Part shown: positions 19,741-35,719 of the stretch, in pieces | How positions within the stretch are numbered: position 1 is the stretch's first letter | How the letters are laid out: every line of letters starts with the position of its first letter | From: a virus | Virus record (IMG/VR): IMGVR_UViG_3300035701_000135 | Coordinates: 1-36,048 of that record | DNA: 36,048 nt | Direction: 5' to 3' (one strand) | Position numbers and translations under genes: made by a program | Notes under the pieces: generated by a model | Databases searched by the model: none | What the model saw: the letters and a program-made list of their open reading frames with translations, nothing else | What the model was told of the DNA's origin: nothing

Positions 19741-20313
19741 ATGGGATCAGTCGAACGTGCATACGTCGCAATCGACGTCAACAACTTGTGGCACTCCTGC
19801 CGAGAGATCTACGGTAGGGACACACGAGTTAGCTATCCGTCTCTCAAAAGACTGATCAATGGTCGACGGTACTCGAACCTCCCTCGTCAATTGACGATCA
19901 CTGCTTACGCTGTGACCTTGTCCTTCTCCAAGACGGACAATGCCAGATTCCTGCAGTCACTCCAAAAGCTAGGATTCATCGTCAAGACCCGAAGCATGAG
20001 GATCGAGAAAGGACTCGCCAAACCGTTTGCCACAGATTGGGACGTTGGGATCACGATTGATGCTATCAGTGACGTCAACACCTACGACACGTTCATTCTG
20101 GTATCAGGTGATGGTGACTACGCCATGCTACTCGAACGCCTCCACAAGCTAGGCAAACGAGTTGAGGTGATCACCTTCCAAACCACCGCCTCCAGTCTGC
20201 TGCATGCCGTAGCAGACGAGCTGGTCTACCTGACCGAGAACGAAGTGTTTCAAGACCCTGGGAGACGTCATGGATCAAGCGATCAAGAAGACCCCGCCCC
20301 CGAAGAAGACTGA
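19741..20313 (+). CDS. NYN-domain (LabA/DUF88-type) RNase-like protein
   Basis: This 190-residue protein has the PIN-like NYN fold: VAIDVNNLW with Asp 12, a central strand region, DWDVGITIDA near 99-108 with two Asp, and LVSGDGDY near 121-128. These acidic residues bind the catalytic metal. Such proteins cleave RNA. Here it sits between the resolvase and the terminase, and its last 44 bases overlap the terminase start. The target is unknown; tRNA, mRNA or a packaging-linked RNA are all possible. Confidence 0.85.
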   Translation: MGSVERAYVAIDVNNLWHSCREIYGRDTRVSYPSLKRLINGRRYSNLPRQLTITAYAVTLSFSKTDNARFLQSLQKLGFIVKTRSMRIEKGLAKPFATDWDVGITIDAISDVNTYDTFILVSGDGDYAMLLERLHKLGKRVEVITFQTTASSLLHAVADELVYLTENEVFQDPGRRHGSSDQEDPAPEED

Positions 20314-26174: not shown

Positions 26175-26429
26175 ATGAAGGATCTGTCACTGGTGGAGCT
26201 ATCAAACAGGATCTCCAGCATGCTTGTGGACACACTGAAAAAGGAACATTATCGGATCGAGTTGGGAAACGACTCTGGCATAAGGGTGAGTGGAGTAGCT
26301 GAAAGAGAGCTATTCTTCGCTCTGCGGTGCAAGGTCTTCAAGACCGTGCCTCCAGATCCAACCAAGAAACCAGATCCTGAAGGGTCACCAAGCCAACAGG
26401 AACCCGCCACCCCAGAAAGCGGAAGGTAG
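26175..26429 (+). CDS. Small unknown protein, last of the plus-strand operon
   Basis: This 84-residue protein starts at the ATG after CGGAG. A helical N-terminus (LVELSNRISSMLVDTLKKEHY) precedes a short beta part and a Pro-rich disordered tail. Its stop codon lies inside the 3' end of the oppositely oriented tRNA-Ser, so the operon and the tRNA array converge with a 10-base overlap. Confidence 0.68.
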   Translation: MKDLSLVELSNRISSMLVDTLKKEHYRIELGNDSGIRVSGVAERELFFALRCKVFKTVPPDPTKKPDPEGSPSQQEPATPESGR

Positions 26430-26502
26430 AGGAGTCGAACCCCCAGCCGTTAGACCGCCCCCGCTTTCAAGGCGGGTTGCCTCACCGTCGGCGGTACCTT
26501 CC
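26420..26502 (-). tRNA. tRNA-Ser(UGA)
   Basis: The acceptor GGAAGGT/ACCTTCC is perfect with G73. The anticodon stem CCCGC/GCGGG holds loop CTTGAAA. A long variable arm and TTCGACT T-loop fit the Ser class. It is separated from the rest of the array by the HNH gene. Confidence 0.95.
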
Positions 26503-26506
26503 AGAT

Positions 26507-27016
26507 CTATGGCTGCAGCTCCACGGTCCAGTAGTCCCTCCACTCGACAGGGATCGAGTGGACATCACGCAGAGCGACGTTGAAGGTGGGCACCCACGTA
26601 GGCCGAAAGGGTTGCGACCGGAGCTGCATCCCGGACTCTCTCGGAGTCATGTTCGCCTTGCGTGCATTGCATGCCTGGCAGGCCATGACGATGTTCTCCC
26701 ACTCCGTTCGGCCACCTCGAGAACGAGGAATGACGTGATCAAAGGTCAAGATCACGTCGCGACCGTGGGCGCCGCAGTATTGGCACTTGAACTTGTCCCT
26801 CGCCAGAACGTTCTGACGAGAGAACTTGATCCGCTTCTTGCTGGCGCTGATGCCGTGGGTCAGACGAACCACTGCCGGCATGCCCATGTTGAAGTGGACT
26901 TCCTGCCCGTACTCCTCCAGCACGTCCACCTTCCCCTTGGCGACATAGGTCATCGCCTTCGTCCAGGGGACGGTGTTGATCGGTTGGTAGCCTTGGTCGA
27001 GCACGAGCGTTTGCAT
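26507..27016 (-). CDS. HNH endonuclease within the tRNA array
   Basis: In this 169-residue protein the N-terminal VLDQGYQPINTVPWTKA and the GKVDVLEEY segment match a widespread bacterial HNH nuclease family. The catalytic part has CQYCG near 77, FDHVIPRSRGG near 92-102, WENIVMACQACNARK near 105-119, and a conserved tail with P-x-R-P-x-W-x-P. Cys pairs bind zinc and the DH/N residues cut DNA. It starts after GAGGTGAT. It sits between two tRNA genes, in line with them, so it may be a homing nuclease linked to tRNA-array mobility (inference). Confidence 0.92.
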   Translation of the reverse strand: MQTLVLDQGYQPINTVPWTKAMTYVAKGKVDVLEEYGQEVHFNMGMPAVVRLTHGISASKKRIKFSRQNVLARDKFKCQYCGAHGRDVILTFDHVIPRSRGGRTEWENIVMACQACNARKANMTPRESGMQLRSQPFRPTWVPTFNVALRDVHSIPVEWRDYWTVELQP

Positions 27017-27049
27017 GACATCACCTCGAATAGTCTAGGTCGTGGGCCG

Positions 27050-27078
27050 ATTATACAGTGCTCGAGGAGGGATTCGAA
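27050..27078 (-). promoter_or_regulatory. Possible promoter for the HNH gene
   Basis: On the minus strand a perfect TATAAT lies 33 bases before the HNH start codon, with a poor -35 (TTCGAA) 17 bases further upstream inside the T-arm of tRNA-Leu(CAA). The -10 is convincing and the -35 is not. It could let the nuclease be expressed independently of the array transcript. Confidence 0.35.
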
Positions 27079-27133
27079 CCCTCACTTTTCCAAGGTTTGA
27101 GCTTGGTGCGACTTCCGTTTGCGCCACTCGAGC
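27059..27133 (-). tRNA. tRNA-Leu(CAA), short variable loop
   Basis: The acceptor GCTCGAG/CTCGAGC has A73. The anticodon stem CCAAG/CTTGG holds loop CTCAAAC, and the T-loop is TTCGAAT. The variable loop is only 6 bases, whereas bacterial tRNA-Leu normally has a long arm. Confidence 0.9.
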
Positions 27134-27137
27134 ATGG

Positions 27138-27211
27138 TACCAGGGATGGGATTCGAACCCACACTGGACAGCGCCTCGGGCTGTTGCCACTTCCGTTTGG
27201 GCTACCCTGGC
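27138..27211 (-). tRNA. tRNA-Leu(GAG), C33, CCA encoded
   Basis: The acceptor GCCAGGG/CCCTGGT has A73, and CCA is encoded (27135-27137). The anticodon stem ACAGC/GCTGT holds loop CCGAGGC, so position 33 is C rather than U. The variable loop is short. The identity rests on anticodon GAG. Confidence 0.85.
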
Positions 27212-27224
27212 ATATCAAGATCAG

Positions 27225-27298
27225 TCAGGCAGGCGGGAGTCGAACCCGCACAACTCCGGCGCCCCATGCCGGCGGCTTACCACCAAGCCCTCTGCCTG
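27225..27298 (-). tRNA. tRNA-Pro(GGG)
   Basis: The acceptor CAGGCAG/CTGCCTG starts with the C1-G72 pair usual for Pro and has A73. The anticodon stem CCGGC/GCCGG holds loop ATGGGGC. The T-arm GCGGG/CCCGC has loop TTCGACT. Confidence 0.93.
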
Positions 27299-27302
27299 TC
27301 GG

Positions 27303-27377
27303 TACCCCTGGCGAGATTCGAACTCGCACGCATCGGGTTTAAGCCGATAGCCTCTACCTGTTGGGCTTTACAGGGGC
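27303..27377 (-). tRNA. tRNA-Leu(UAA), short variable loop
   Basis: The acceptor GCCCCTG/CAGGGGT has A73. The anticodon stem ATCGG/CCGAT holds loop CTTAAAC. The T-loop is TTCGAAT. The variable loop has 4 bases, atypical for Leu. Confidence 0.9.
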
Positions 27378-27404
27378 AAACAAATCGATCTAGAATGGTG
27401 AACT

Positions 27405-27611
27405 ATGACAAAAGAAGAGAAGGATCACGCCATCTTAGACTTTTTGTCTGGTCCACGAACAGGAGAGGGACTGCAAGGCACGGGTCAGTCTCTGTTGATC
27501 AACGTGGTACGCTATCTTGCGGCCCAGGTCAGGTCCATGGAATACAGGATCAAAGAGCTGGAAAAGAAAGTGGCAGCAACTGGGATCGAACCAGCAATTC
27601 CCGGATTATGA
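27405..27611 (+). CDS. Small plus-strand coiled-coil ORF inside the array
   Basis: This 68-residue ORF runs opposite to the tRNAs. Residues 1-55 look natural: charged KEEKDHAILDFL start, LLINVVRYLAAQVRSMEYRIKELEKKV coiled coil. The last 13 residues are read through the 3' half of tRNA-Met on the other strand. No ribosome site stands out. It occupies the largest tRNA-free gap after the HNH gene. The function is unknown; it may be a displaced fragment. Confidence 0.5.
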   Translation: MTKEEKDHAILDFLSGPRTGEGLQGTGQSLLINVVRYLAAQVRSMEYRIKELEKKVAATGIEPAIPGL

Positions 27612-27644
27612 GACCGGTGAGGAGACCCTCTCCTCCCTGCTGCC
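27571..27644 (-). tRNA. tRNA-Met or Ile2 (CAU)
   Basis: The acceptor GGCAGCA/TGCTGCC has A73. The anticodon loop is CTCATAA on CCGGT/TCCGG, with a T-T mismatch at the loop end. The T-loop is TTCGATC. There is no initiator GGG/CCC stem. It cannot be told from sequence alone whether C34 is lysidine-modified (Ile) or not (Met). Confidence 0.85.
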
Positions 27645-27647
27645 AAG

Positions 27648-27689
27648 TACCGGGAGCGGGACTCGAACCCGCAACAACTGGGGCCTGAG
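27648..27689 (-). pseudogene. tRNA 3'-half relic
   Basis: Immediately after tRNA-Leu(UAG) lies an intact 3' portion: a loop-like CTCAGGC, stem CCCAG, short variable region, T-arm GCGGG/CCCGC with TTCGAGT, and acceptor 3' strand TCCCGGT plus A. The matching 5' half is absent. The cut falls at the start of the anticodon loop, which would read CAG (Leu). Confidence 0.7.
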
Positions 27690-27764
27690 TGGGGACGGAG
27701 GGACTCGAACCCTCAGACAATGGATCCTAAATCCACCGCGTCTACCTGATTGCGCCACGTCCCC
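27690..27764 (-). tRNA. tRNA-Leu(UAG), short variable loop
   Basis: The acceptor GGGGACG/CGTCCCC has A73. The anticodon stem GTGGA/TCCAT holds loop TTTAGGA. The T-arm is GAGGG/CCCTC. It lacks the long variable arm of bacterial tRNA-Leu. Confidence 0.9.
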
Positions 27765-27806
27765 GTAGAAAATGGGTCCTAACAGCTGTAATCCCTGTCG
27801 GTTTGG

Positions 27807-27880
27807 TACGCCCTAGCCGACTCGAACGGCTAATTCCAGGTTCGTAGCCTGGCGTGATAATTCCATTTCACTAAGGGCGC
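27807..27880 (-). tRNA. tRNA-Arg(ACG)
   Basis: The acceptor GCGCCCT/AGGGCGT has A73. The anticodon stem CCAGG/CCTGG holds loop CTACGAA. A34 needs deamination to inosine by host TadA to read CGU, CGC and CGA. Confidence 0.94.
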
Positions 27881-27969
27881 TTGCGGTACTTCTTCTGACG
27901 CTCTGTGTGCCCTGCTCGACACACCTCACAACGGCACTTGTGATATCCGTAGGCTGTTGCTGTGCAGAT
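27871..27969 (-). pseudogene. Remnant encoding a CRCxxC motif
   Basis: The spacer between tRNA-Val(UAC) and tRNA-Arg(ACG) reads without stops as about 32 codons including GYHKCRCEVCRAGH, and ends in TAG within the tRNA-Arg 5' end. There is no start codon upstream of the motif before the frame closes inside tRNA-Val. GY-x-x-CRC-x-x-C is a motif known at the N-terminus of small phage proteins that often continue into a helix-turn-helix. This looks like a gene decapitated by tRNA insertion. Confidence 0.45.
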
Positions 27970-27971
27970 GG

Positions 27972-28044
27972 TGGGCGGTGAGGGAGTTGAACCCCCATTA
28001 TTCCTGAGTGTAGGTCAGGTTCCATTCCGCTAGGAGAACCGCCC
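27972..28044 (-). tRNA. tRNA-Val(UAC), C33
   Basis: The acceptor GGGCGGT/ACCGCCC has A73. The anticodon stem CCTGA/TCAGG holds loop CCTACAC, with C at position 33. The T-loop is TTCAACT. Confidence 0.88.
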
Positions 28045-28047
28045 GAA

Positions 28048-28121
28048 TGCTGCGACTGAGAGTTGAACTCAGACTTGTGGTTCCGGAGACCACCGTGCAG
28101 GGTCCGCTACACTATCGCAGC
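28048..28121 (-). tRNA. tRNA-Arg(CCG)
   Basis: The acceptor GCTGCGA/TCGCAGC has A73. The anticodon stem GTGGT/ACCAC holds loop CTCCGGA. The T-arm CTGAG/CTCAG has TTCAACT. Confidence 0.94.
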
Positions 28122-28126
28122 CAAAG

Positions 28127-28200
28127 TGATCCTGGCAGGAGTCGAACCTGCATCTATCCACTTAGGGGGTGGATGCCTCTCCTTATTAGGCTACAGGACC
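28127..28200 (-). tRNA. tRNA-Arg(CCU), C33
   Basis: The acceptor GGTCCTG/CAGGATC has A73. The anticodon stem TCCAC/GTGGA holds loop CCCCTAA, so position 33 is C. The T-arm GCAGG/CCTGC is normal. Confidence 0.88.
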
Positions 28201-28203
28201 AGA

Positions 28204-28271
28204 TACCCCGTCCAAGAATCGAACTTGGCACAACCGGTTTAGAAGACCAGTCTGGCTCCTTACCACGGGGC
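28204..28271 (-). tRNA. tRNA-Arg(UCU), shortened D-arm
   Basis: Only 68 bases long. The acceptor GCCCCGT/ACGGGGT has A73. The anticodon stem CTGGT/ACCGG holds loop CTTCTAA, and the T-arm CCAAG/CTTGG is normal. Only 14 bases separate the acceptor and anticodon stems, so the D-arm is reduced. Confidence 0.85.
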
Positions 28272-28275
28272 ATAG

Positions 28276-28343
28276 AGGCGCTGTAGCGAATCGAACGCTA
28301 CTCACACGATTTGCAGTCGTGTTTGCTCCCAGAACGCAGCGCC
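28276..28343 (-). tRNA. tRNA-Cys(GCA), shortened D-arm
   Basis: The acceptor GGCGCTG/CAGCGCC has U73, the Cys identity base. The anticodon stem CACGA/TCGTG holds loop CTGCAAA. It is 68 bases long with a 15-base D-region. Confidence 0.92.
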
Positions 28344-28346
28344 AAG

Positions 28347-28415
28347 CGGGCCAGCAAGGAATTGAACCCTGTCCTACCGATTTGGAGTCGGATTGGCTGC
28401 CATAGCCTCTGACCC
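28347..28415 (-). tRNA. tRNA-Trp(CCA)
   Basis: The acceptor GGGTCAG/CTGGCCC has G73, typical for Trp. The anticodon loop is CTCCAAA on TCCGA/TCGGT, with one mismatch at the outer pair. It is 69 bases long. Confidence 0.9.
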
Positions 28416-28420
28416 ATCAG

Positions 28421-28493
28421 AGCCGCCACAGAGAATCGAACTCTGCCTTGCTGCTTACCAAGCAGCCGTCCCAACCATGTGGACCTTGGCGGC
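28421..28493 (-). tRNA. tRNA-Thr(GGU)
   Basis: The acceptor GCCGCCA/TGGCGGC has U73. The anticodon stem GCTGC/GCAGC holds loop TTGGTAA. The T-arm is CAGAG/CTCTG. Confidence 0.94.
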
Positions 28494-28504
28494 AAATCGA
28501 CCCC

Positions 28505-28554
28505 GCACAGATCATCCCCTCTGACAGACTAGTCATATCGGCAATGATCTGTGC
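28505..28554 (-). other. Stem-closed spacer element A
   Basis: A perfect 11-base inverted repeat (28505-28515 with 28544-28554; GCACAGATCAT and its complement) encloses 28 bases that include the palindrome GACTAGTC. It is not a tRNA and is not followed by a T-run. It lies between tRNA-Ala(UGC) and tRNA-Thr(GGU). Confidence 0.55.
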
Positions 28555-28560
28555 AGGTAG

Positions 28561-28632
28561 TGGAGAGTAGGGGATTTGAACCCCTGATCCAGCCGTGCAA
28601 GGGCCGTGTGATTCCAGTTTCACCAACTCCCC
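28561..28632 (-). tRNA. tRNA-Ala(UGC)
   Basis: The acceptor GGGGAGT/ACTCTCC has A73 and one G-U pair at 3-70, the alanine identity element. The anticodon stem CGGCC/GGCTG holds loop CTTGCAC. The T-arm is AGGGG/CCCCT. Confidence 0.94.
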
Positions 28633-28636
28633 AGAA

Positions 28637-28709
28637 TGGGCACTGCCGGACTCGAACCGGCGGTCACCTGCGTGTCGAGCAGGGGTCCTTGCCGCTAGAC
28701 GAAGCTCCC
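28637..28709 (-). tRNA. tRNA-Val(GAC), C33
   Basis: The acceptor GGGAGCT/AGTGCCC has one A-G mismatch and A73. The anticodon stem CCTGC/GCAGG holds loop TCGACAC, with C33. The D-arm resembles Glu/Asp tRNAs, so identity rests on the anticodon. Confidence 0.8.
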
Positions 28710-28713
28710 TCAG

Positions 28714-28785
28714 TGACCCCAGGGGGAGTTGAACCCGCCGTTGCGTGGGTGAAAACCACGGTGCCTACCGTTAGCAGATGGGGCC
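28714..28785 (-). tRNA. tRNA-Glu(UUC)
   Basis: The acceptor GGCCCCA/TGGGGTC has A73. The anticodon stem CGTGG/CCACG holds loop TTTTCAC. It is closely similar to the adjacent tRNA-Glu(CUC), suggesting tandem duplication. Confidence 0.93.
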
Positions 28786-28790
28786 TTCAG

Positions 28791-28862
28791 TGACCTCGAG
28801 GGGAGTTGAACCCACCATTTCCTGGGTGAGAACCAGGTTGCCTACCGTTAGCAGACGAGGCC
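28791..28862 (-). tRNA. tRNA-Glu(CUC)
   Basis: The acceptor GGCCTCG/CGAGGTC has A73. The anticodon stem CCTGG/CCAGG holds loop TTCTCAC. It shares D-arm and T-arm sequence with the preceding tRNA-Glu(UUC). Confidence 0.93.
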
Positions 28863-28874
28863 ATTCAAGATCAG

Positions 28875-28945
28875 AGCCGGTGACAGGAATCGAACCCGCC
28901 TCTCTCGGGTACAGGCCGAGTGCATCTCCACAATGCTTCACCGGC
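28875..28945 (-). tRNA. tRNA-Thr(UGU), C33
   Basis: The acceptor GCCGGTG/CACCGGC has U73. The anticodon stem CTCGG/CCGAG holds loop CCTGTAC, with C33. The T-loop is TTCGATT. Confidence 0.88.
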
Positions 28946-28950
28946 AACAG

Positions 28951-29022
28951 AGCCCTCGCGGAGAGTCGAACTCCGATATCTCGGATACGAGCCGAGCGCA
29001 GCTCCACATCTGCTTCGAGGGC
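28951..29022 (-). tRNA. tRNA-Thr(CGU)
   Basis: The acceptor GCCCTCG/CGAGGGC has U73. The anticodon stem CTCGG/CCGAG is the same as in tRNA-Thr(UGU), with loop CTCGTAT and a normal U33. Confidence 0.94.
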
Positions 29023-29026
29023 ATGG

Positions 29027-29100
29027 TGCCAGGGAAGGGATTCGAACCCTCACTTTCAGGTTCCTGAAACCTGTGCGACTTCCTGTTGCGCCACCCTGGC
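29027..29100 (-). tRNA. tRNA-Leu(CAG), short variable loop, CCA encoded
   Basis: The acceptor GCCAGGG/CCCTGGC has A73, then CCA (29024-29026). The anticodon stem CAGGT/ACCTG holds loop TTCAGGA. The variable loop is short. The acceptor is shared with tRNA-Leu(GAG). Confidence 0.9.
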
Positions 29101-29104
29101 TTGG

Positions 29105-29177
29105 TCGGGGACGTGGGAGTCGAACCCACAACCTCTCGCTCCCGAAGCGAGCGTGCTACCGTATGCACCTCTCCCCG
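29105..29177 (-). tRNA. tRNA-Pro(CGG), CCA encoded
   Basis: C1-G72 and A73 fit Pro, and CCA is at 29102-29104. The acceptor has one G-G mismatch at the inner end. The anticodon stem CTCGC/GCGAG holds loop TTCGGGA. Confidence 0.9.
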
Positions 29178-29178
29178 A

Positions 29179-29266
29179 TGGTGCGACTGGGCTACTTGCA
29201 TTTCAGCAAGCCCATCGATCCACGATCAGTTGACCGTGTGACGTCAGGTCCATTTACCCAGACGCA
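29179..29266 (-). other. Stem-closed spacer element B with terminal ACCA
   Basis: A 10-base stem with one T-T mismatch (29182-29191 with 29257-29266) closes about 65 bases between tRNA-Gly(UCC) and tRNA-Pro(CGG). An internal hairpin TTGC/GCAA lies next to the 3' arm. The 3' arm is followed by ACCA, as in a tRNA, but there is no TTCRA T-loop. It is either a degenerate tRNA or a tRNA-like RNA. Confidence 0.5.
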
Positions 29267-29271
29267 TGTAG

Positions 29272-29343
29272 TGCGGGTGCGGAGAGTTGAACTCCGTCAT
29301 CCAGTTTGGAAGACTGGCATGCAACCGATAACATCTCACCCGC
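29272..29343 (-). tRNA. tRNA-Gly(UCC)
   Basis: The acceptor GCGGGTG/CACCCGC has A73. The anticodon stem CCAGT/ACTGG holds loop CTTCCAA. The T-arm CGGAG/CTCCG has TTCAACT. Confidence 0.94.
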
Positions 29344-29347
29344 ATGC

Positions 29348-29411
29348 GATGAGTCGTAAGACGCCCTTGGGGACCGGGATCAGCTGCCGTCTCCGTGTCA
29401 GCCGACTCATC
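29348..29411 (-). other. Stem-closed spacer element C
   Basis: A perfect 9-base inverted repeat (GATGAGTCG and its complement, 29348-29356 with 29403-29411) closes 46 bases. Inside is a D-arm-like hairpin GCTG/CAGC next to the 5' arm (minus strand) and a GACG/CGTC pairing option. There is no T-arm and no T-run. It lies between tRNA-Ser(GGA) and tRNA-Gly(UCC). Confidence 0.55.
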
Positions 29412-29414
29412 TGG

Positions 29415-29498
29415 CGGAAGACCGGGGAGTCGAACCCCGCTGGCCACTGGGACCGCACCGCGCTTCCAACGCGGCTGCGCACCTCGCGCACGTCTTCC
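29415..29498 (-). tRNA. tRNA-Ser(GGA), CCA encoded
   Basis: The acceptor GGAAGAC/GTCTTCC has G73 and then CCA (29412-29414). The anticodon stem CCGCG/CGCGG holds loop TTGGAAG. A long variable arm is present. Confidence 0.95.
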
Positions 29499-29507
29499 AT
29501 AGGTCGA

Positions 29508-29585
29508 TCTCGTGTGTGGGATTCGAACCCTCTGGTTCCGCCGTGAGCGGGATTGCCAGCTGCCTCTCTCACGGAGCATCACAAG
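29508..29585 (-). tRNA. Degenerate tRNA, possibly Val(CAC)
   Basis: The acceptor CTTGTGA/ACACGAG has one mismatch and A73, and the T-loop is TTCGAAT, but its stem has an A-A mismatch. The best anticodon arm has loop CTCACGG (anticodon CAC) on a weak stem, with a D-region about seven bases too long. It may be a decaying tRNA. Val(CAC) would complete the Val set. Confidence 0.45.
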
Positions 29586-29594
29586 ATCAACCAG

Positions 29595-29678
29595 CGGAAG
29601 GGACAGGAATTGAACCTGCTGGGCCTTGCGACCCTGACGGGTTAGCAACCCGCTCCAGTACCATACTGGTCCCCTTCC
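29595..29678 (-). tRNA. tRNA-Ser(GCU)
   Basis: The acceptor GGAAGGG/CCCTTCC has G73. The D-arm CCAG/CTGG is clear. The anticodon stem GCGGG/CCCGT holds loop TTGCTAA. The long variable arm fits Ser. Confidence 0.95.
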
Positions 29679-29755
29679 ATGCCGGCGATGCTGCCACTAC
29701 ACCACAGGTCCCCGAAGGGTCCTGGCGGGGCTCGAACCCGCGCCTCCGGACGTCG
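29679..29755 (-). other. Circularly permuted tRNA-like element
   Basis: The 77 bases exactly between tRNA-Gly(GCC) and tRNA-Ser(GCU) read, on the minus strand, as a tRNA 3' half followed by a tRNA 5' half. The 3' half has anticodon-stem strand TCCGG, T-arm GCGGG/CCCGC with TTCGAGC, and acceptor strand CAGGACC. The 5' half has acceptor GGACCTG, a Gly-like D-arm, and stem CCGGC. The two acceptor strands pair in 6 of 7 positions plus one extra C-G, and are joined by a TTCG tetraloop. CCGG in each half can pair as an anticodon stem. The anticodon itself cannot be assigned. Two fused truncated tRNAs are the alternative. Confidence 0.55.
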
Positions 29756-29827
29756 TGCAGCTGGCGGGAGTTGAACCCGCGCCTCCTGACTGGCAATCAG
29801 GCATGCGGCCACGAACACTTCAGCTGC
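29756..29827 (-). tRNA. tRNA-Gly(GCC)
   Basis: The acceptor GCAGCTG/CAGCTGC has A73. The anticodon stem CCTGA/TCAGG holds loop TTGCCAG. The T-arm is GCGGG/CCCGC with TTCAACT. The 3' half is very similar to that of the adjacent permuted element. Confidence 0.94.
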
Positions 29828-29829
29828 GT

Positions 29830-29898
29830 AGCGGGTCCGGGTACTGCCCCCGGTTCTCGAGGTTATGGGCCTCGCGTGGAGCTTCTCCACCAACCCGC
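29830..29898 (-). tRNA. Atypical CAU tRNA (C33, no TTC T-loop)
   Basis: The acceptor GCGGGTT/GACCCGC pairs fully with one G-U. The anticodon stem CGAGG/CCTCG holds loop CCCATAA with C33. A perfect T-stem CCGGG/CCCGG holds loop GGCAGTA instead of TTCRANY. The fourth base after the acceptor is U. It is well paired but lacks the TψC signature; it may be Met, Ile2 or non-functional. Confidence 0.6.
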
Positions 29899-29900
29899 AG

Positions 29901-29974
29901 CGGACGTGAAGGGAATCGAACCCTCCTCATTCCTGATCGACAGTCAGGCGTCCACACCAGTAGACTTCACGTCC
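29901..29974 (-). tRNA. tRNA-Asp(GUC)
   Basis: The acceptor GGACGTG/CACGTCC has G73, the Asp identity base. The anticodon stem CCTGA/TCAGG holds loop CTGTCGA. The T-loop is TTCGATT. Confidence 0.95.
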
Positions 29975-29987
29975 ATGGCCGGGGGCG

Positions 29988-30047
29988 TTACCTCAGGCCA
30001 ACGCCTGATCCTCTTTCGAGGAGCCTAAAGATCTCCCGGATGACCTG
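29988..30047 (-). pseudogene. Short coding-like remnant in spacer
   Basis: After tRNA-Ser(CGA) the minus strand reads as QVIREIFRLLERGSGVGLR then a stop, with codon use like real genes but no start codon of its own. It may be the tail of a helix-turn-helix gene cut off by the tRNA. The evidence is weak because the fragment is short. Confidence 0.25.
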
Positions 30048-30048
30048 G

Positions 30049-30130
30049 CGGAAGGTAGACGAATCGAACGCCCAGCTTGGTAGCCGCCCTCGGGTTCGAG
30101 CCGAGTTAGGGACCTTCCCTGGTACCTTCC
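30049..30130 (-). tRNA. tRNA-Ser(CGA), CCA encoded
   Basis: The acceptor GGAAGGT/ACCTTCC is the same as in tRNA-Ser(UGA), with G73 and CCA (30046-30048). The anticodon stem CTCGG/CCGAG holds loop CTCGAAC. A long variable arm is present. Confidence 0.94.
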
Positions 30131-30136
30131 ATCGAG

Positions 30137-30207
30137 TGGACCCACCGGGGGTTGAACCCGGAATACGGCCATGCCGAGGCCGCGTGATCCCATTTCACTA
30201 TGAGCCC
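30137..30207 (-). tRNA. tRNA-Ala(GGC), C33
   Basis: The acceptor GGGCTCA/TGGGTCC has a G-U at 3-70, the Ala identity pair, and A73. The anticodon stem CGGCC/GGCCG holds loop TCGGCAT, with C33. Confidence 0.9.
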
Positions 30208-30211
30208 AGAG

Positions 30212-30283
30212 TGGAGACGGAGGGAGTCGAACCCTCACTTCAGCGTTGCGAACGCCGTGTGCTCCCGCTATCACTACGTCCCC
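30212..30283 (-). tRNA. tRNA-Ala(CGC)
   Basis: The acceptor GGGGACG/CGTCTCC has G-U at 3-70 and A73, as expected for Ala. The anticodon stem CGGCG/CGCTG holds loop TTCGCAA. The T-arm is GAGGG/CCCTC. Confidence 0.94.
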
Positions 30284-30285
30284 TT

Positions 30286-30310
30286 GGGGTGACCGGTGGA
30301 AGTCGAATCT
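30286..30310 (-). repeat. Duplicated tRNA-His 3' end
   Basis: These 25 bases match the T-loop-to-3'-end part of tRNA-His (30311-30335) at 19 of 25 positions and lie directly next to it as a tandem copy. Only the T-loop, the 3' T-stem strand and the acceptor strand are present. It is a relic of duplication or of integration at the tRNA 3' end. Confidence 0.65.
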
Positions 30311-30312
30311 GG

Positions 30313-30385
30313 GGTGACGGACGGGAGTCGAACCCGCTATAACAAGGGCCACAACCTTGCGCCCGACCGTTAGGCTTCCGCCACC
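30313..30385 (-). tRNA. tRNA-His(GUG)
   Basis: The acceptor GTGGCGG/CCGTCAC is extended by G-1 paired with C73, the His-specific feature. The anticodon stem CAAGG/CCTTG holds loop TTGTGGC. The T-arm is GCGGG/CCCGT with TTCGACT. Confidence 0.95.
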
Positions 30386-30561
30386 ATGATCTGCAAAACC
30401 TTTCTCCTCAGCACAGCATGTGAGCACCCGACTTTCTGTGCCATCTCCCGCCACGACATCTTTTTTCGCATCTTCAACAACGTAGAGTTGGACGGCCATT
30501 CGTACCGTCGGTTGCATGGATGCTGCGGCCACAGTCGCCTCGGAGAGAATCGGACTCTCAT
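30370..30561 (-). pseudogene. Helix-turn-helix gene remnant between tRNAs
   Basis: The 149-base gap between tRNA-Ile and tRNA-His encodes, on the tRNA strand, WPSNSTLLKMRKKMSWREMA and then a QKVGCSHAVLRRKVL helix-turn-helix, ending in TAA inside tRNA-His. The frame stays open into tRNA-Ile, but the residues there are tRNA-derived. ATG 30471 or 30459 could start a product of about 30 residues, with poor ribosome sites. It is most likely the C-terminal half of a Cys-plus-HTH phage protein whose N-terminus was lost. Confidence 0.45.
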
Positions 30562-30606
30562 CTCACGCTTATCAGGCGTGTGCTTGGACCACTAAGCTAC
30601 GAGGCG
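30535..30606 (-). tRNA. tRNA-Ile(GAU)
   Basis: The acceptor CGCCTCG/CGAGGCG has A73. The anticodon stem CACGC/GCGTG holds loop CTGATAA. The T-arm GAGAG/CTCTC has loop TCCGATT. C1-G72 is unusual for Ile. Confidence 0.92.
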
Positions 30607-30612
30607 GATCAG

Positions 30613-30695
30613 CTCTGGAGGAGGGATTCGAACCCCCGGTGGGATTGCTCCCGGATGGTTAACAGCCATCTGCCCTGCCGCTAGGCGACTCCAGA
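30613..30695 (-). tRNA. tRNA-Asn(GUU) with long variable arm
   Basis: The acceptor TCTGGAG/CTCCAGA has U1-A72 and G73, as in bacterial tRNA-Asn. The anticodon stem GATGG/CCATC holds loop CTGTTAA. The variable region is 16 bases with a GGGA/TCCC stem, making this a class II-shaped tRNA, which Asn tRNAs normally are not. Confidence 0.9.
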
Positions 30696-30700
30696 ATGAG

Positions 30701-30774
30701 TCGGGGTGACTGGATTCGAACCAGCGTAACTCCTGCTCCCAAAGCAGGCGAGGGACCAACTCCTCCACACCCCG
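30701..30774 (-). tRNA. tRNA-Pro(UGG)
   Basis: The acceptor CGGGGTG/CACCCCG has the Pro-type C1-G72 and A73. The anticodon stem CCTGC/GCAGG holds loop TTTGGGA. The T-arm is GCTGG/CCAGT. Confidence 0.95.
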
Positions 30775-30780
30775 ATGTAG

Positions 30781-30851
30781 ATCCCCCTGCTGGAATCGAA
30801 CCAGCATCCTCGGATTCAAAGCCCGGTGTCCAGCCACTAGACGAAGGGGGA
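30781..30851 (-). tRNA. tRNA-Gln(UUG)
   Basis: The acceptor TCCCCCT/AGGGGGA starts with U1-A72, typical of Gln. The anticodon loop is CTTTGAA on CCGGG/TCCGA, with the outermost pair mismatched. The T-arm is GCTGG/CCAGC. Confidence 0.92.
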
Positions 30852-30855
30852 ATAG

Positions 30856-30928
30856 TGGAGAGAGGGAGAATCGAACTCCCATTTCAGGATTTTCAGTCCC
30901 GCGCCTTGACCACGTAGGCTATCTCTCC
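30856..30928 (-). tRNA. tRNA-Phe(GAA)
   Basis: The acceptor GGAGAGA/TCTCTCC has A73. The anticodon stem CGGGA/TCCTG holds loop CTGAAAA. The T-arm is GGGAG/CTCCC. Confidence 0.95.
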
Positions 30929-30933
30929 ATGTA

Positions 30934-31004
30934 TGGACCCAGAGTGAATCGAACACTCACCAATCGGTTATGAGCCGATAGCTCGTCCTTCGAGCTATGG
31001 GTCC
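30934..31004 (-). tRNA. tRNA-Met or Ile2 (CAU)
   Basis: The acceptor GGACCCA/TGGGTCC has A73. The anticodon stem ATCGG/CCGAT holds loop CTCATAA, and the D-arm GCTCG/CGAGC is strong. It is an elongator type, not an initiator. Whether C34 becomes lysidine cannot be read from the sequence. Confidence 0.9.
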
Positions 31005-31113
31005 ATCGGCCACGACCAACTATTCGATTATCAAAGATCAAGAAGTACTGAAGATCTCTGTCGAGATATCGGCTTCAGCTCCCGCACAAGCACCGTGCCT
31101 GGCACTTCTTCAG
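31005..31113 (-). other. Array spacer with small hairpin only
   Basis: This 109-base spacer lies between tRNA-Gln(CUG) and tRNA-Met. I see a short hairpin (ATCTC/GAGAT) and a very short coding-like run KKCQARCLCGS before a stop, but no gene or tRNA. Confidence 0.5.
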
Positions 31114-31188
31114 TTCGGGTGGGAGGAGTCGAACCTCCACAAGACACGGGTTCAGAGCCCGTCGTTCTGCCAATTGAACTACACCCGA
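31114..31188 (-). tRNA. tRNA-Gln(CUG)
   Basis: The acceptor TCGGGTG/CACCCGA has U1-A72 and A73. The anticodon stem ACGGG/CCCGT holds loop CTCTGAA. The T-arm is GGAGG/CCTCC. Confidence 0.94.
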
Positions 31189-31199
31189 TCAACAATCAG

Positions 31200-31271
31200 T
31201 GGGCCCGGAGGGAGTTGAACCCTCACCTGTCGGCTTAAGAGGCCGCTGTGCAACCATAACACCTCGAGCCC
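31200..31271 (-). tRNA. tRNA-Lys(CUU)
   Basis: The acceptor GGGCTCG/CGGGCCC has A73. The anticodon loop is CTCTTAA on GCGGC/GCCGA, with the outer pair mismatched. The T-arm GAGGG/CCCTC has TTCAACT. Confidence 0.92.
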
Positions 31272-31283
31272 GATCTTCTGCAG

Positions 31284-31356
31284 TGCCTCCGGCAGGACTC
31301 GAACCTGCGTCTCGACGGGTAAAAGCCGTGTGTGCTGGCCGCTGCACCACGGAGGC
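31284..31356 (-). tRNA. tRNA-Lys(UUU)
   Basis: The acceptor GCCTCCG/CGGAGGC has A73. The anticodon loop is CTTTTAC, on a stem with four firm pairs (ACGG/CCGT). The T-arm is GCAGG/CCTGC. Confidence 0.92.
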
Positions 31357-31424
31357 TCGACCTGAATCGAGCCCCTGTTTCAAGCGGTACATGAATTCCT
31401 GCAAGCACACGTTCGGCCTCCTGG

Positions 31425-31511
31425 TGGGAGACGATGGAATCGAACCACTCGCCCAAACGGGATCGCGTTTACAGCGCGACGCAGGCCCAGCCTGCCTTAT
31501 TGTCGCCTCCC
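31425..31511 (-). tRNA. tRNA-Tyr(GUA), CCA encoded
   Basis: The acceptor GGGAGGC/GTCTCCC has A73 and CCA (31422-31424). The anticodon stem TCGCG/CGCGA holds loop CTGTAAA. A long variable arm is present, as expected for bacterial Tyr. It is the first tRNA of the array in transcription order, only 7 bases after a terminator. Confidence 0.94.
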
Positions 31512-31518
31512 AGATACG

Positions 31519-31548
31519 AAAAAAGCCGCCAGGTTTCCCAGGCGGCTT
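31519..31548 (-). terminator. Rho-independent terminator before the tRNA array
   Basis: On the minus strand an 8-base-pair stem (31523-31530 with 31541-31548) with a 10-base loop is followed by six T. It ends transcription of the lysis/methyltransferase operon just upstream of tRNA-Tyr. Because only 7 bases separate it from the tRNA, array transcription must read through it or start within this region. Confidence 0.85.
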
Positions 31549-31575: not shown

Positions 31576-31740
31576 TCAGCCGCCTGGTGCTCCTTCATGC
31601 TCGAAGGTATTTGGGTAGTAAGACTGCAGGGTACCCAATACCCTCGAACTATCGGGGCGCACGCTAAACGCACACGTCCCGCACCAGCCTGTAATGGCCG
31701 GTCGTGACTTGAGGCGTTTGGTAGCGGCTTGGAGTTTCAT
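31576..31740 (-). CDS. Small protein with WCGTC motif
   Basis: This 54-residue protein starts at ATG 31740. The N-terminus is basic (KLQAATKRLKSRP), and the centre has WCGTC and an SVRPDSSRVLGTLQSYYPN stretch. It ends 28 bases before the terminator, as the last gene of the minus-strand operon. A frame open seven codons further up has no better start. The function is unknown. Confidence 0.6.
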   Translation of the reverse strand: MKLQAATKRLKSRPAITGWCGTCAFSVRPDSSRVLGTLQSYYPNTFEHEGAPGG

Positions 31741-31762
31741 CTTCTCTATCCTGTGCCTCAAC

Positions 31763-31789
31763 GGGGGTTGCTTGTCAACCCCCTTTTTT
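31763..31789 (+). terminator. Plus-strand terminator-like hairpin
   Basis: Arms GGGGGTTG and CAACCCCC (31763-31770, 31776-31783) with a 5-base loop are followed by six T on the plus strand. No plus-strand gene precedes it closely. It may stop antisense transcription into the lysis operon. On the minus strand the same hairpin overlaps the stop codon at 31775 and lacks a T-run. Confidence 0.6.
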
Positions 31790-32562: not shown

Positions 32563-33326
32563 GTGAGCCGTCGTCTGATCTCTCTGGTGTCGATATCACC
32601 CAAAAGGAATCTCCTCTTGTGATCACGACACATCTGACCAACCACCCCAGACCCACCAAATATGTCGAGGACTGTATCTCCCTCGTTGGATGACTGCAAC
32701 ACCAAAAGAGAGATCAGTTCCGACGGCTTCTCTGTCGGGTAGAACTTGACTCCCTTCAGCCTCTGGTACCGTAGAACATCTCCCGGTCCTAGGTCGTTGA
32801 GCTGCCGGTGCTTGTTAACTCGGATCACTTTCTCAGCCATGATGATGAACTCGTGCTGAGCACGAAAGTGGTACCCCATTCCGGCAACGACCTTGTCCCA
32901 GATGAGGGCCTTCCAGTACTTGAACCCTGCCTGGATCAGCGGCGAGTAACCTAGGCTGACCTCTGGTGTCTGAGGAGACCAGCCGCATGTGACGACATCT
33001 CTGGTCTCTTCGTCACAGAACAGGTACAGGTGCGTCCCTGGCTTCATCACCCGGTAGAGCTGCTGAAAGAGTTGACCGTACCGGTCATTGGGGAAGGTCT
33101 GGAACCAATCATTGCTCGAGGCCTTGGAGTGCTTGAGACGAGTCTTCGACCCAACAGCCCGGTGCTTCTCCAAGCTCTCGTAAGCAGGATCAGAGATCAC
33201 CAGGTCGACAGAATCAGACTGCACCTCCTTGAGCATGTCGATGCAGTCACCAGTGAAGATCTTGCCGCCAGGCACTTGTTTCCAGCCCACTACAGGGGCT
33301 GGCTTTGGGGGTGGTGTCTTGATCAT
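32559..33326 (-). CDS. DNA methyltransferase (N6-adenine or N4-cytosine type)
   Basis: This 255-residue protein has a K/P-rich start (IKTPPPKPAP), then the catalytic motif IV VISDPAYE near 43-50 (a DPPY variant), a central target-recognition region, KPSELISLLV near 202, and the AdoMet motif LDIFGGSGVVGQ near 217. Motif IV before motif I gives the beta arrangement. There is no restriction enzyme nearby, so it is an orphan methylase, perhaps protecting phage DNA. The target sequence is unknown. Confidence 0.9.
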   Translation of the reverse strand: MIKTPPPKPAPVVGWKQVPGGKIFTGDCIDMLKEVQSDSVDLVISDPAYESLEKHRAVGSKTRLKHSKASSNDWFQTFPNDRYGQLFQQLYRVMKPGTHLYLFCDEETRDVVTCGWSPQTPEVSLGYSPLIQAGFKYWKALIWDKVVAGMGYHFRAQHEFIIMAEKVIRVNKHRQLNDLGPGDVLRYQRLKGVKFYPTEKPSELISLLVLQSSNEGDTVLDIFGGSGVVGQMCRDHKRRFLLGDIDTREIRRRLT

Positions 33327-33787
33327 CCTCGTGGCACTTTCATCTTTGCGATCTCAATCAGAAGCATCTTGACTTGTGCTTCGAGAGTCATTGTAGCTGG
33401 CCTCTCGAACCTCTCGGCCATCTCGACGATCTTCTCGAATGGGACAGGATGACGTCCAGCTCCAAAGCATTCGAACAGGCCTCGCTGGACCTCGACCAGA
33501 TGAGTGGTATACCCAATCTCTTCTGCCCGATTCTTGAACCAGAGGTACTCCCACTCTCTGGTATTTGTGTTGTCCAACACAATGAGTTCTTCATCTTGAT
33601 CGATCGCCGTTTCGAATTTGGCCTTGGTCCAAGCCACAGCATGATCAAGCTTGGTGTGATCAAATCGGTATGGGCCGTCCAATGACCAGAAGTCGTCCAT
33701 GGAAACTACTACTGCACCAGTGAAGAGCTTGGCAAGTGTGCTCTTCCCGCAGCCAGGAAGACCTCTAAGGATGATCACTGTTCTCAT
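33323..33787 (-). CDS. P-loop kinase, polynucleotide-kinase/N4BP2-like
   Basis: This 154-residue protein opens with VIILRGLPGCGKSTLAKLF (Walker A at about 10-17), followed by VVVSMDDFW near 27, YRFDHTKLDHA near 41 and LIVLDNTNTREWEY near 68-81. This is the AAA_33/polynucleotide-kinase-like pattern (Dx[D/E] then DNTN). These enzymes phosphorylate 5'-OH ends of nucleic acid or small substrates. No phosphatase or ligase domain is attached. In phages a PNK often repairs tRNAs cleaved by anticodon nucleases, which is suggestive next to this array but unproven. Confidence 0.85.
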   Translation of the reverse strand: MRTVIILRGLPGCGKSTLAKLFTGAVVVSMDDFWSLDGPYRFDHTKLDHAVAWTKAKFETAIDQDEELIVLDNTNTREWEYLWFKNRAEEIGYTTHLVEVQRGLFECFGAGRHPVPFEKIVEMAERFERPATMTLEAQVKMLLIEIAKMKVPRG

Positions 33788-35116: not shown

Positions 35117-35431
35117 CTATTTTGGGATCTCTATTGGCAGATCACCATGGAGAAATCTCTCCTTGTCCTGGTGACTTAGCTGCTTGAGTTTGTGCTCGAA
35201 TTTCAGTGCGCTAGATTGCGTTAGCGGAATGTCCAAAGTCCAGATCAACTTCACGGGCCTCTGCCCACGCAAACTGCGGGCACCCTTCCTGCTGGTGTTG
35301 TGTTCCAGACAACGTCTTTCTGGATCCACAGAGATTCCCGTGTACAGGTTCCCCATGGATGTCCGGACCATGTAGACAAAAAACCTCTTGACTTTCTGAT
35401 CCAGTGATTCATATATGGGATCAATGGTCAT
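35117..35431 (-). CDS. GIY-YIG nuclease
   Basis: The protein has 104 residues from ATG 35431; the frame continues 16 codons up without a ribosome site. The core reads FFVYMVRTSMGNLYTGIS (17-34), the GIY-YIG pair, then the Arg near 39-40 and the Glu in LEHN near 43. It is a single-domain YhbQ/UvrC-N-like enzyme that may act as a structure-specific or homing nuclease. It lies between the endolysin and the window-edge genes. Confidence 0.88.
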   Translation of the reverse strand: MTIDPIYESLDQKVKRFFVYMVRTSMGNLYTGISVDPERRCLEHNTSRKGARSLRGQRPVKLIWTLDIPLTQSSALKFEHKLKQLSHQDKERFLHGDLPIEIPK

Positions 35432-35440
35432 GGTGATCAA

Positions 35441-35719
35441 ATGTTCCTCAGATGCGACAGATGCGGTGCTCCCGCACATCCAGCCCTACCCGGTCTGTAC
35501 GGGCTAACTCACGCCAGGCTCTGTCTGGCGTGCTGCAATGTCGTCGCACGTCGTCAATCACTCTCGGTACTGGCAGTAGCACCCGAGATGGTGGTACGTG
35601 CTCCGACTCCGCAGCCGAGGGTTGTGTGTGCGGTAGACCAGAGGTTCTTCGGAGACCACGACAGGGACACTGGCAAGGCAGTTCTGGTTGAAGAGGAAGA
35701 CCTAGCCAGGGCTGCCTAA
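35441..35719 (+). CDS. Cys-pair protein, only plus-strand gene on the right
   Basis: This 92-residue protein starts 9 bases from the GIY-YIG start in the opposite direction. It has CDRCGAPA at residues 5-8 and CLACC near 28-32, a likely zinc ribbon, then a less ordered acidic end. It stops one base before the oppositely oriented gene at 35720. No ribosome site is clear; the N-terminal motif is the main support. Confidence 0.55.
   Translation: MFLRCDRCGAPAHPALPGLYGLTHARLCLACCNVVARRQSLSVLAVAPEMVVRAPTPQPRVVCAVDQRFFGDHDRDTGKAVLVEEEDLARAA

Follow-up and report, generated by a model that had tools for sequence, protein, structure and literature searches.

A phage tRNA array covering all sense codons, preceded by a putative attenuator with all 20 amino acids in its leader

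Attenuators of amino-acid operons, of the trp, his and ilv type, have leaders enriched in a single amino acid or a small number of them, and T-boxes directly bind one uncharged transfer RNA (tRNA). Why phages carry tRNA genes has been argued over for decades. Here, we analyzed a tRNA array and the leader preceding it in a 36,048-nucleotide stretch of DNA (hereafter, the window; positions 1 to 36,048 of the IMG/VR virus record IMGVR_UViG_3300035701_000135). The arrays described for phages and mycobacteria consist of densely packed genes, some with all 20 isotypes, with embedded HNH genes and sometimes a transfer-messenger RNA (tmRNA) gene (PMC5966550, PMC6409571, PMC12803027; phage XacN1, PMC5852040), and phage tRNAs are known to replace cut host tRNAs as a counter-defence against tRNases (PMC11555353, PMC10264068, PMC13096335).

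The locus is similar to the trp, his and ilv attenuators in its short leader open reading frame (ORF), its overlapping antiterminator and terminator, and the terminator placed before the first gene, and control would presumably be exerted by the position of the ribosome; unlike those attenuators, the phage leaders contain all 20 amino acids with spread codons and would control a viral tRNA operon. As in a T-box, a shortage of aminoacyl-tRNA would be sensed via antitermination, but here by a coding leader used by a phage, and no T-box riboswitch match was found in the window at the Rfam gathering score. In contrast to the known arrays, the present one holds 42-43 essentially non-redundant genes serving all codons, in a set and order kept across distant phages, together with the putative attenuator. 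The published counter-defence cases concern single tRNAs with a strong promoter, a mutated anticodon loop or an amplified gene, whereas here a whole set is involved, apparently in a conditional manner. Complete isotype sets are already known in phages, and the combination is best regarded as leader-peptide attenuation in a variant form, coupled to an array of known type. The literature searched, with most subscription papers outside its reach, yielded neither an all-20 leader peptide nor a phage tRNA array regulated by attenuation. From the sequence, we consider it probable that the locus is a phage operon encoding a full decoding tRNA set, under the control of a transcription attenuator located in the 5' leader.

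The leader and its predicted switch

Relatives were located by a terminase search, and the best of them, IMGVR_UViG_3300009082_000018 (109.6 kb), carries the loci L010, L028 and L036; a distant phage contig of 197.8 kb carries L038. All leader features of the window lie on the minus strand. A perfect -35 box, TTGACA (31773-31778), is located directly upstream of the leader ORF in the window and in L028, and TTGAC precedes most other leaders. The putative leader and array promoter was not listed by a promoter scan because its -10-like sequence downstream, CAGGAT (31748-31753), is weak. The leader ORF (31576-31740) has 54 codons, encodes MKLQAATKRLKSRPAITGWCGTCAFSVRPDSSRVLGTLQSYYPNTFEHEGAPGG and ends in GAPGG before the stop codon; it contains all 20 amino acids in 44 distinct codons, and 36 of the 41 anticodons of the array would serve to decode it. 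A long hairpin predicted by folding within the ORF (TTCGAGGGTATTGGGTA / TACCCAAATACCTTCGAG, 31600-31648) has counterparts in L028, L038 and L242, and is possibly a pause hairpin for RNA polymerase.

Three segments at the end of the leader constitute the predicted switch. Segment 1 (CCAGGCGGCT, 31578-31587), the 5' arm of the antiterminator, contains the T of TGA, the leader's stop codon, while segment 2 (AGCCGCCTGG, 31538-31547) can pair either with segment 1, over 10 base pairs, to form the antiterminator, or with segment 3 (CCTGGCGGC plus six U residues, 31519-31533) to form an intrinsic terminator directly before tRNA-Tyr. The terminator hairpin spans 31525-31547, its U-run ends at 31519, and 11 nucleotides separate it from the tRNA gene. 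The same arrangement was observed in L028 and L038. When the full 3' region of the leader was folded, segments 1 and 2 paired in both the window and L038; when segment 1 was masked, the terminator was formed in the window, L028, L038 and 13 other leaders folded. As expected of an attenuator, the window has a short 5' ORF, a terminator before the first gene, and a mutually exclusive antiterminator at the end of the ORF, and its leader holds the codons of the amino acids to be sensed, in this case all 20.

The leaders of the window, L028 and L038 have 54, 51 and 50 codons (44 in L038 if translation starts at its ATG), and each contains 20 of 20 amino acids. The probability that one peptide of such length does so by chance is 5-7%, so that further leaders were required. 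Candidates first ranked by amino-acid content were biased and were not used for statistics, for which content-blind rules were applied instead: rule 1 required a terminator, a segment 1 and a stop codon within segment 1, and rule 2 required TTGAC, an ORF that starts with ATG and runs for 30-80 codons, and, past its stop, a hairpin. Rule 2 yielded 16 unique leaders upstream of tRNAs in array phages, in which only 10 amino-acid types were missing in total, compared with a mean of 42.4 (minimum 23 of 100,000) in simulations with phage composition and a minimum of 24 in 20,000 draws of windows from the phage's real proteins. Ten of the 16 leaders contained all 20 amino acids, against 0.9 expected, while 14 control ORFs that satisfied rule 2 without a downstream tRNA lacked 61 types, with none complete. 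One extra match, which fell on the L038 HNH gene at its 3' end, was excluded; its inclusion gives 12 missing types versus 44.3. The synonymous codons were also unusually spread: over 17 leaders, a set chosen partly by content, which has no bearing on synonymous choice, 590 distinct codons were counted against an expectation of 551.9 for these peptides (no more than 584 in 5,000 simulations), and the spread was strongest in the window, L028 and L046. Further, phage Rctr197k (KX853510), examined afterwards, has a 52-codon leader of the same anatomy with 20 of 20 amino acids and a terminator downstream. A DNA-pattern search for further leaders recovered only the three phages behind the pattern.

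Several observations weigh against control by attenuation. The minimum free energy fold of the full leader end is the terminator in L028 (with a longer flank), L045-L047, L052, L054, L061 and L065, and any switch in those leaders would depend on co-transcriptional kinetics. Besides the weak -10 box mentioned above, the leaders have no obvious ribosome-binding sites. Some of the leaders are homologous; without L028 and L242, the count is 10 missing types versus 37.6 (minimum 18), and L047 and L054 may also share ancestry. Five otherwise convincing leaders each miss a single amino acid, namely W, K, C, V or H, L043 misses two, and the similar ORF of Synechococcus phage S-CBWM1 contains only 18 of 20. 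This ORF, gp18 (L265, NC_048106, 10804-10977), has 57 codons without W and C and lies directly before tRNAs with a terminator after it, and S-CBWM1 could possibly serve as a cultured model. Finally, in five of the 12 all-20 leaders one amino acid is confined to the final six codons, and a ribosome stalled there may already cover segment 1. In the other seven, every amino acid is present ahead of those codons; since the five are short by only one there, nearly every shortage would stall the ribosome early enough.

The promoter-like -35 box, the leader ORF, the predicted exclusive antiterminator and terminator, the stop codon in the antiterminator arm, the complete array, the conservation of this anatomy and the excess of all-20 leaders are demonstrated at the level of the DNA, and from known attenuators we infer that translation of the leader would regulate the array. 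When all aminoacyl-tRNAs are available, the ribosome would reach the stop codon and cover segment 1, the terminator would form, and the array would be off. A shortage of any aminoacyl-tRNA, caused for example by a host tRNase or by removal of a tRNA by the phage itself, would stall the ribosome upstream; segments 1 and 2 would then pair, terminator formation would be blocked, and all tRNAs would be transcribed together. Failed initiation on the leader would likewise switch the array on.

The same switch would answer any stall, and the leader may accordingly be read as a sensor of any elongation block (antibiotic, ribosome damage or initiation failure), with the array as part of a general response and the 20-amino-acid content incidental to a long, slow ORF; the strong internal hairpin of the leader would suit this possibility. 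A general sensor, however, needs neither every amino acid nor spread codons, both of which are far above chance, and we regard it as improbable.

Under control by aminoacyl-tRNA shortage, the array would be a conditional reserve, which fits the rescue by phage tRNAs after host tRNA cutting (PMC11555353, PMC13096335) and the anticodon-nuclease hypothesis (PMC10264068). The original prediction, that a self-sufficient elongator set would let the phage survive total destruction of host tRNAs, holds in part: use of the array after such destruction gained independent support from the leader attenuator, which that prediction had not seen. The array still depends on host synthetases, TilS, TadA and RNase P, and most of its genes also require CCA to be added. 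A scan of 54 proteins of the relative G002 revealed no synthetase domain. Codon compensation, which has the widest acceptance among hypotheses for phage tRNAs (PMC10264068), would instead make the array a constitutive supply matched to the codons that the phage uses. The leader ORF would then simply encode an ordinary small protein and be followed by a terminator of its own. The tRNAs of XacN1 do match codons preferred by the phage (PMC5852040). Codon compensation seems quite unlikely here, as the array covers all codons rather than a subset, and the conserved three-segment geometry, with its stop codon placed within segment 1, and the all-20 content would be left unexplained.

Completeness and turnover of the tRNA set

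ARAGORN detected 42 tRNA genes in the window, all on the minus strand (26419-31507). Because CAT is present twice, they carry 41 anticodons for 20 amino acids, the same count that had been obtained by hand folding. With 42 genes in 5.1 kb, the locus lies within the definition of a tRNA array as at least 15 tRNA genes at a density of at least two per kb (PMC6409571). The tRNA covariance models of Rfam accepted 34 of the 42 genes at the gathering score. Thr-cgt, Glu-ttc, Arg-tct and the class II Ser and Tyr genes were added by laxer and per-genome Rfam searches, some of them with lower scores or as matches to the class II-like tRNA-Sec model. Only Cys-gca (28275-28343) had no covariance-model match in any of these searches; it is the weakest call, although its acceptor, anticodon and T stems pair at 17 of 17 positions. 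Over all 43 genes, including the initiator-like one described below, 715 of 731 acceptor, anticodon and T-stem pairs were standard.

Except where stated, the following genes were called by ARAGORN and matched by Rfam. From the leader onwards, they are Tyr(GTA), class II, called by ARAGORN (31426-31507), Lys(TTT) (31283-31356), Lys(CTT) (31199-31271), Gln(CTG) (31113-31188), a CAT gene read as Ile2 (30933-31005), Phe(GAA) (30855-30928), Gln(TTG) (30780-30851), Pro(TGG) (30700-30774), Asn(GTT) (30612-30695), Ile(GAT) (30534-30606), His(GTG) (30310-30384), Ala(CGC) (30211-30283), Ala(GGC) (30136-30207), Ser(CGA), class II, from the laxer Rfam search (30046-30130), Asp(GTC) (29900-29974), and, beyond the initiator-like gene, Gly(GCC) (29755-29827). 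These are followed by Ser(GCT), class II (29594-29678), Ser(GGA), class II, laxer search (29412-29498), Gly(TCC) (29271-29343), Pro(CGG) (29102-29177), Leu(CAG) (29024-29100), Thr(CGT), below the gathering score (28950-29022), Thr(TGT) (28874-28945), Glu(CTC) (28790-28862), Glu(TTC), laxer search (28713-28785), Val(GAC) (28637-28709), Ala(TGC) (28560-28632), Thr(GGT) (28420-28493), Trp(CCA) (28346-28415) and Cys(GCA). The last part holds Arg(TCT), below the gathering score (28202-28272), Arg(CCT) (28126-28200), Arg(CCG) (28048-28121), Val(TAC) (27969-28044), Arg(ACG), for which inosine is needed (27804-27880), Leu(TAG) (27689-27764), Met(CAT) (27570-27644), Leu(TAA) (27301-27377), Pro(GGG) (27224-27298), Leu(GAG) (27135-27211), Leu(CAA) (76 nucleotides, 27058-27133) and, past the HNH gene, Ser(TGA), class II, laxer search (26419-26502).

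Under strict wobble rules, 60 of the 61 sense codons are readable by the array, leaving AUA, so that all 61 would be covered, as first proposed, if one CAU gene is Ile2, which requires lysidine. The ORFs of the window use all 61 codons. The CAU gene at 30933-31005 is most likely this Ile2, because the same slot in L038 holds Ile(UAU), while the CAU gene at 27570-27644 stands at the position of the L038 Met and is read as the elongator by this synteny. The claim that the initiator alone was missing proved wrong: a third CAU gene, at 29829-29899 (minus strand) and unseen by ARAGORN, forms a stable cloverleaf (fold z = -3.2) with a mismatched 1-72 acceptor pair and a CCCAUAA anticodon loop. Its syntenic counterpart, L028:11034-11107, is called tRNA-Met(CAT) by ARAGORN, and a close match in the GenBank phage Rctr197k is annotated as tRNA-Met. 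The usual D- and T-loop sequences are lost in the window gene, which has an aberrant D-arm and the T-loop GGCAGUA, and we regard it as a putative, initiator-like 43rd gene. GGCAGUA here, and GGCAGAG in Gly-GCC of L038 (5493-5565), replace UUCRANN, and the GG of the D-loop is lost; these changes recall tRNAs that avoid translation.

The complete set appears to be maintained. L028 has the identical 43 genes in the same order save for one Phe/Ile2 swap, and L038 has 42 genes of the same set with an order tau of 0.93. Identities between cognate tRNAs of the window and L028 ranged from 0.52 to 1.00, and in about 14 slots the cognate was no closer, or barely closer, than an unrelated tRNA, yet the anticodon was retained; in these slots the gene was either replaced or diverged under constraint. 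Among 219 stem pairs that changed between the two phages, 177 were changed on both sides and still paired, 21 were changed on one side and still paired, and 21 were unpaired in one phage. In a chance model, 42 draws from 42 types gave 26.7 distinct anticodons (maximum 36 in 200,000), and 40 non-CAU draws from pooled phage anticodon frequencies gave 26.4 (maximum 34), compared with 40 observed. Non-redundancy was also seen in most arrays located via the HNH gene. Since anticodon content and order persist while the sequences turn over and the stems covary, selection for a complete, non-redundant set, as the original prediction had suggested, appears well supported. A selfish cassette spread and kept by the HNH endonuclease, with completeness as a by-product of repeated capture, is very unlikely: although many phages have tRNA arrays marked by relatives of the HNH gene, mycobacterial arrays contain no coding gene more widespread than that for HNH endonucleases (PMC5966550) and array remnants indicate recombination, random capture would yield redundancy, and it would not be expected to replace slots while retaining anticodons and covarying stems.

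Other elements of the locus

The HNH gene within the array (26507-27016, minus strand; PF01844, E 2e-16) encodes, by its domain, a putative homing endonuclease. Its relatives were found at 80 loci, most with same-strand tRNA arrays and many in large phages, while bacterial relatives mostly had none or one tRNA nearby. HNH genes are known from mycobacterial arrays (PMC5966550, PMC12803027). In phages, the HNH gene (26507-27058 region) adjoins tRNA-Leu(CAA), and many Alphaproteobacteria have an HNH-relative locus (L132-L207) with a single tRNA-Leu(CAA). The contig is a tailed-phage fragment with genes for a family A DNA polymerase, RecA-like and SbcCD-like proteins, ThyX and the large terminase. 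No near DNA match to known phages was found for the first 25 kb of the window, and a distant-mode comparison returned single tRNAs and the HNH gene only. The window also encodes an NYN-domain nuclease (LabA-like, 19741-20313) and an AAA_33 kinase resembling polynucleotide kinases (33323-33787, minus strand), both of which could act on RNA, and a GIY-YIG nuclease (35117-35479, minus strand). A tmRNA gene of L038 (2072-2410, 112.8 bits) lies 1.6 kb upstream of its array; tmRNA* calls in L028 and L239 were taken as false positives.

Bacterial tRNA-Leu usually has a long variable arm. All five tRNA-Leu genes of the window (27058-27764 and 29024-29100) are 76-77 nucleotides long and lack it, compared with 83-88 nucleotides in bacterial control genes. 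Over about 50 arrays, short variable loops occurred in 63 of 171 tRNA-Leu but in only 1-2 of 80 tRNA-Ser, and the tRNA-Tyr of L028 is likewise short. Septu is known to cut the variable loop of tRNA-Tyr (PMC13096335), and nuclease evasion by short variable loops is a testable idea. Loss of U33 was rejected as a signature of nuclease evasion (91 of 1221 phage-array tRNAs versus 1 of 60 bacterial controls, with the same Val-GAC loop; p = 0.12).

A permuted tRNA-like element (29679-29754, minus strand), in which the 3' half, a UUCG loop and the 5' half follow one another, resembles the core of YrlA Y RNA. Compensatory changes were seen at 14 of 16 pairs of the permuted core and capped acceptor stem in 14 relatives. 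The copy in the window was the top match of model R1, which was built without it, but R1 also matches tRNA-tRNA junctions; it was rejected as a specific detector because any such junction scores. Further permuted elements, in L028 (11186-11254 and 11864-11974) and L010 (17270, minus strand), have acceptor stems capped by UUCG, GCAA or UUAG loops. The permuted core and the capped stem are shared with YrlA and the bacterial Y RNAs that accompany Ro60, an anatomy that suits the element better than its assignment as a permuted tRNA gene, perhaps one for an amber suppressor, which was dropped. Unlike YrlA, the phage elements score below the Rfam gathering score: a permuted copy of L028 matched RF02553 (YrlA) at 39 bits, against a gathering score of 69, and the window copy had no RF02553 match at E values up to 10. 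Of 26 related phages, 9 have a Ro60 (TROVE) gene next to the array, but none is present in the 36 kb contig of the window; Ro60 genes near arrays were noted earlier for jumbo phages (PMC7824862). YrlA-like RNAs are likewise frequent in related arrays.

A 95-nucleotide element (29499-29593) between Ser-GCT and Ser-GGA has a long closing stem, a T-arm-like piece and a z of -3.5, and is absent in L028. The spacers 29344-29411 and 28494-28559 are conserved between the window and L028 far above most spacers, can form hairpins, and may represent small RNAs. At 27645-27688 and 30284-30309, leftover 3' halves of tRNAs, with T-arm and acceptor, are signs of array recombination.

What the leader would sense

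The leader is likely to act as a viral OR gate over all 20 kinds of aminoacyl-tRNA that frees a complete tRNA set, and its occurrence in about 15-19 phage records of distant lineages would point to wholesale attack on tRNA as a common threat. If this is true, the all-20 leader names loss of tRNA function as the trigger of the array, a question open to a simple reporter, and attenuation gains a new input logic. Such a leader would be a genetic alarm for any tRNA damage and would help to find defences that target tRNA.

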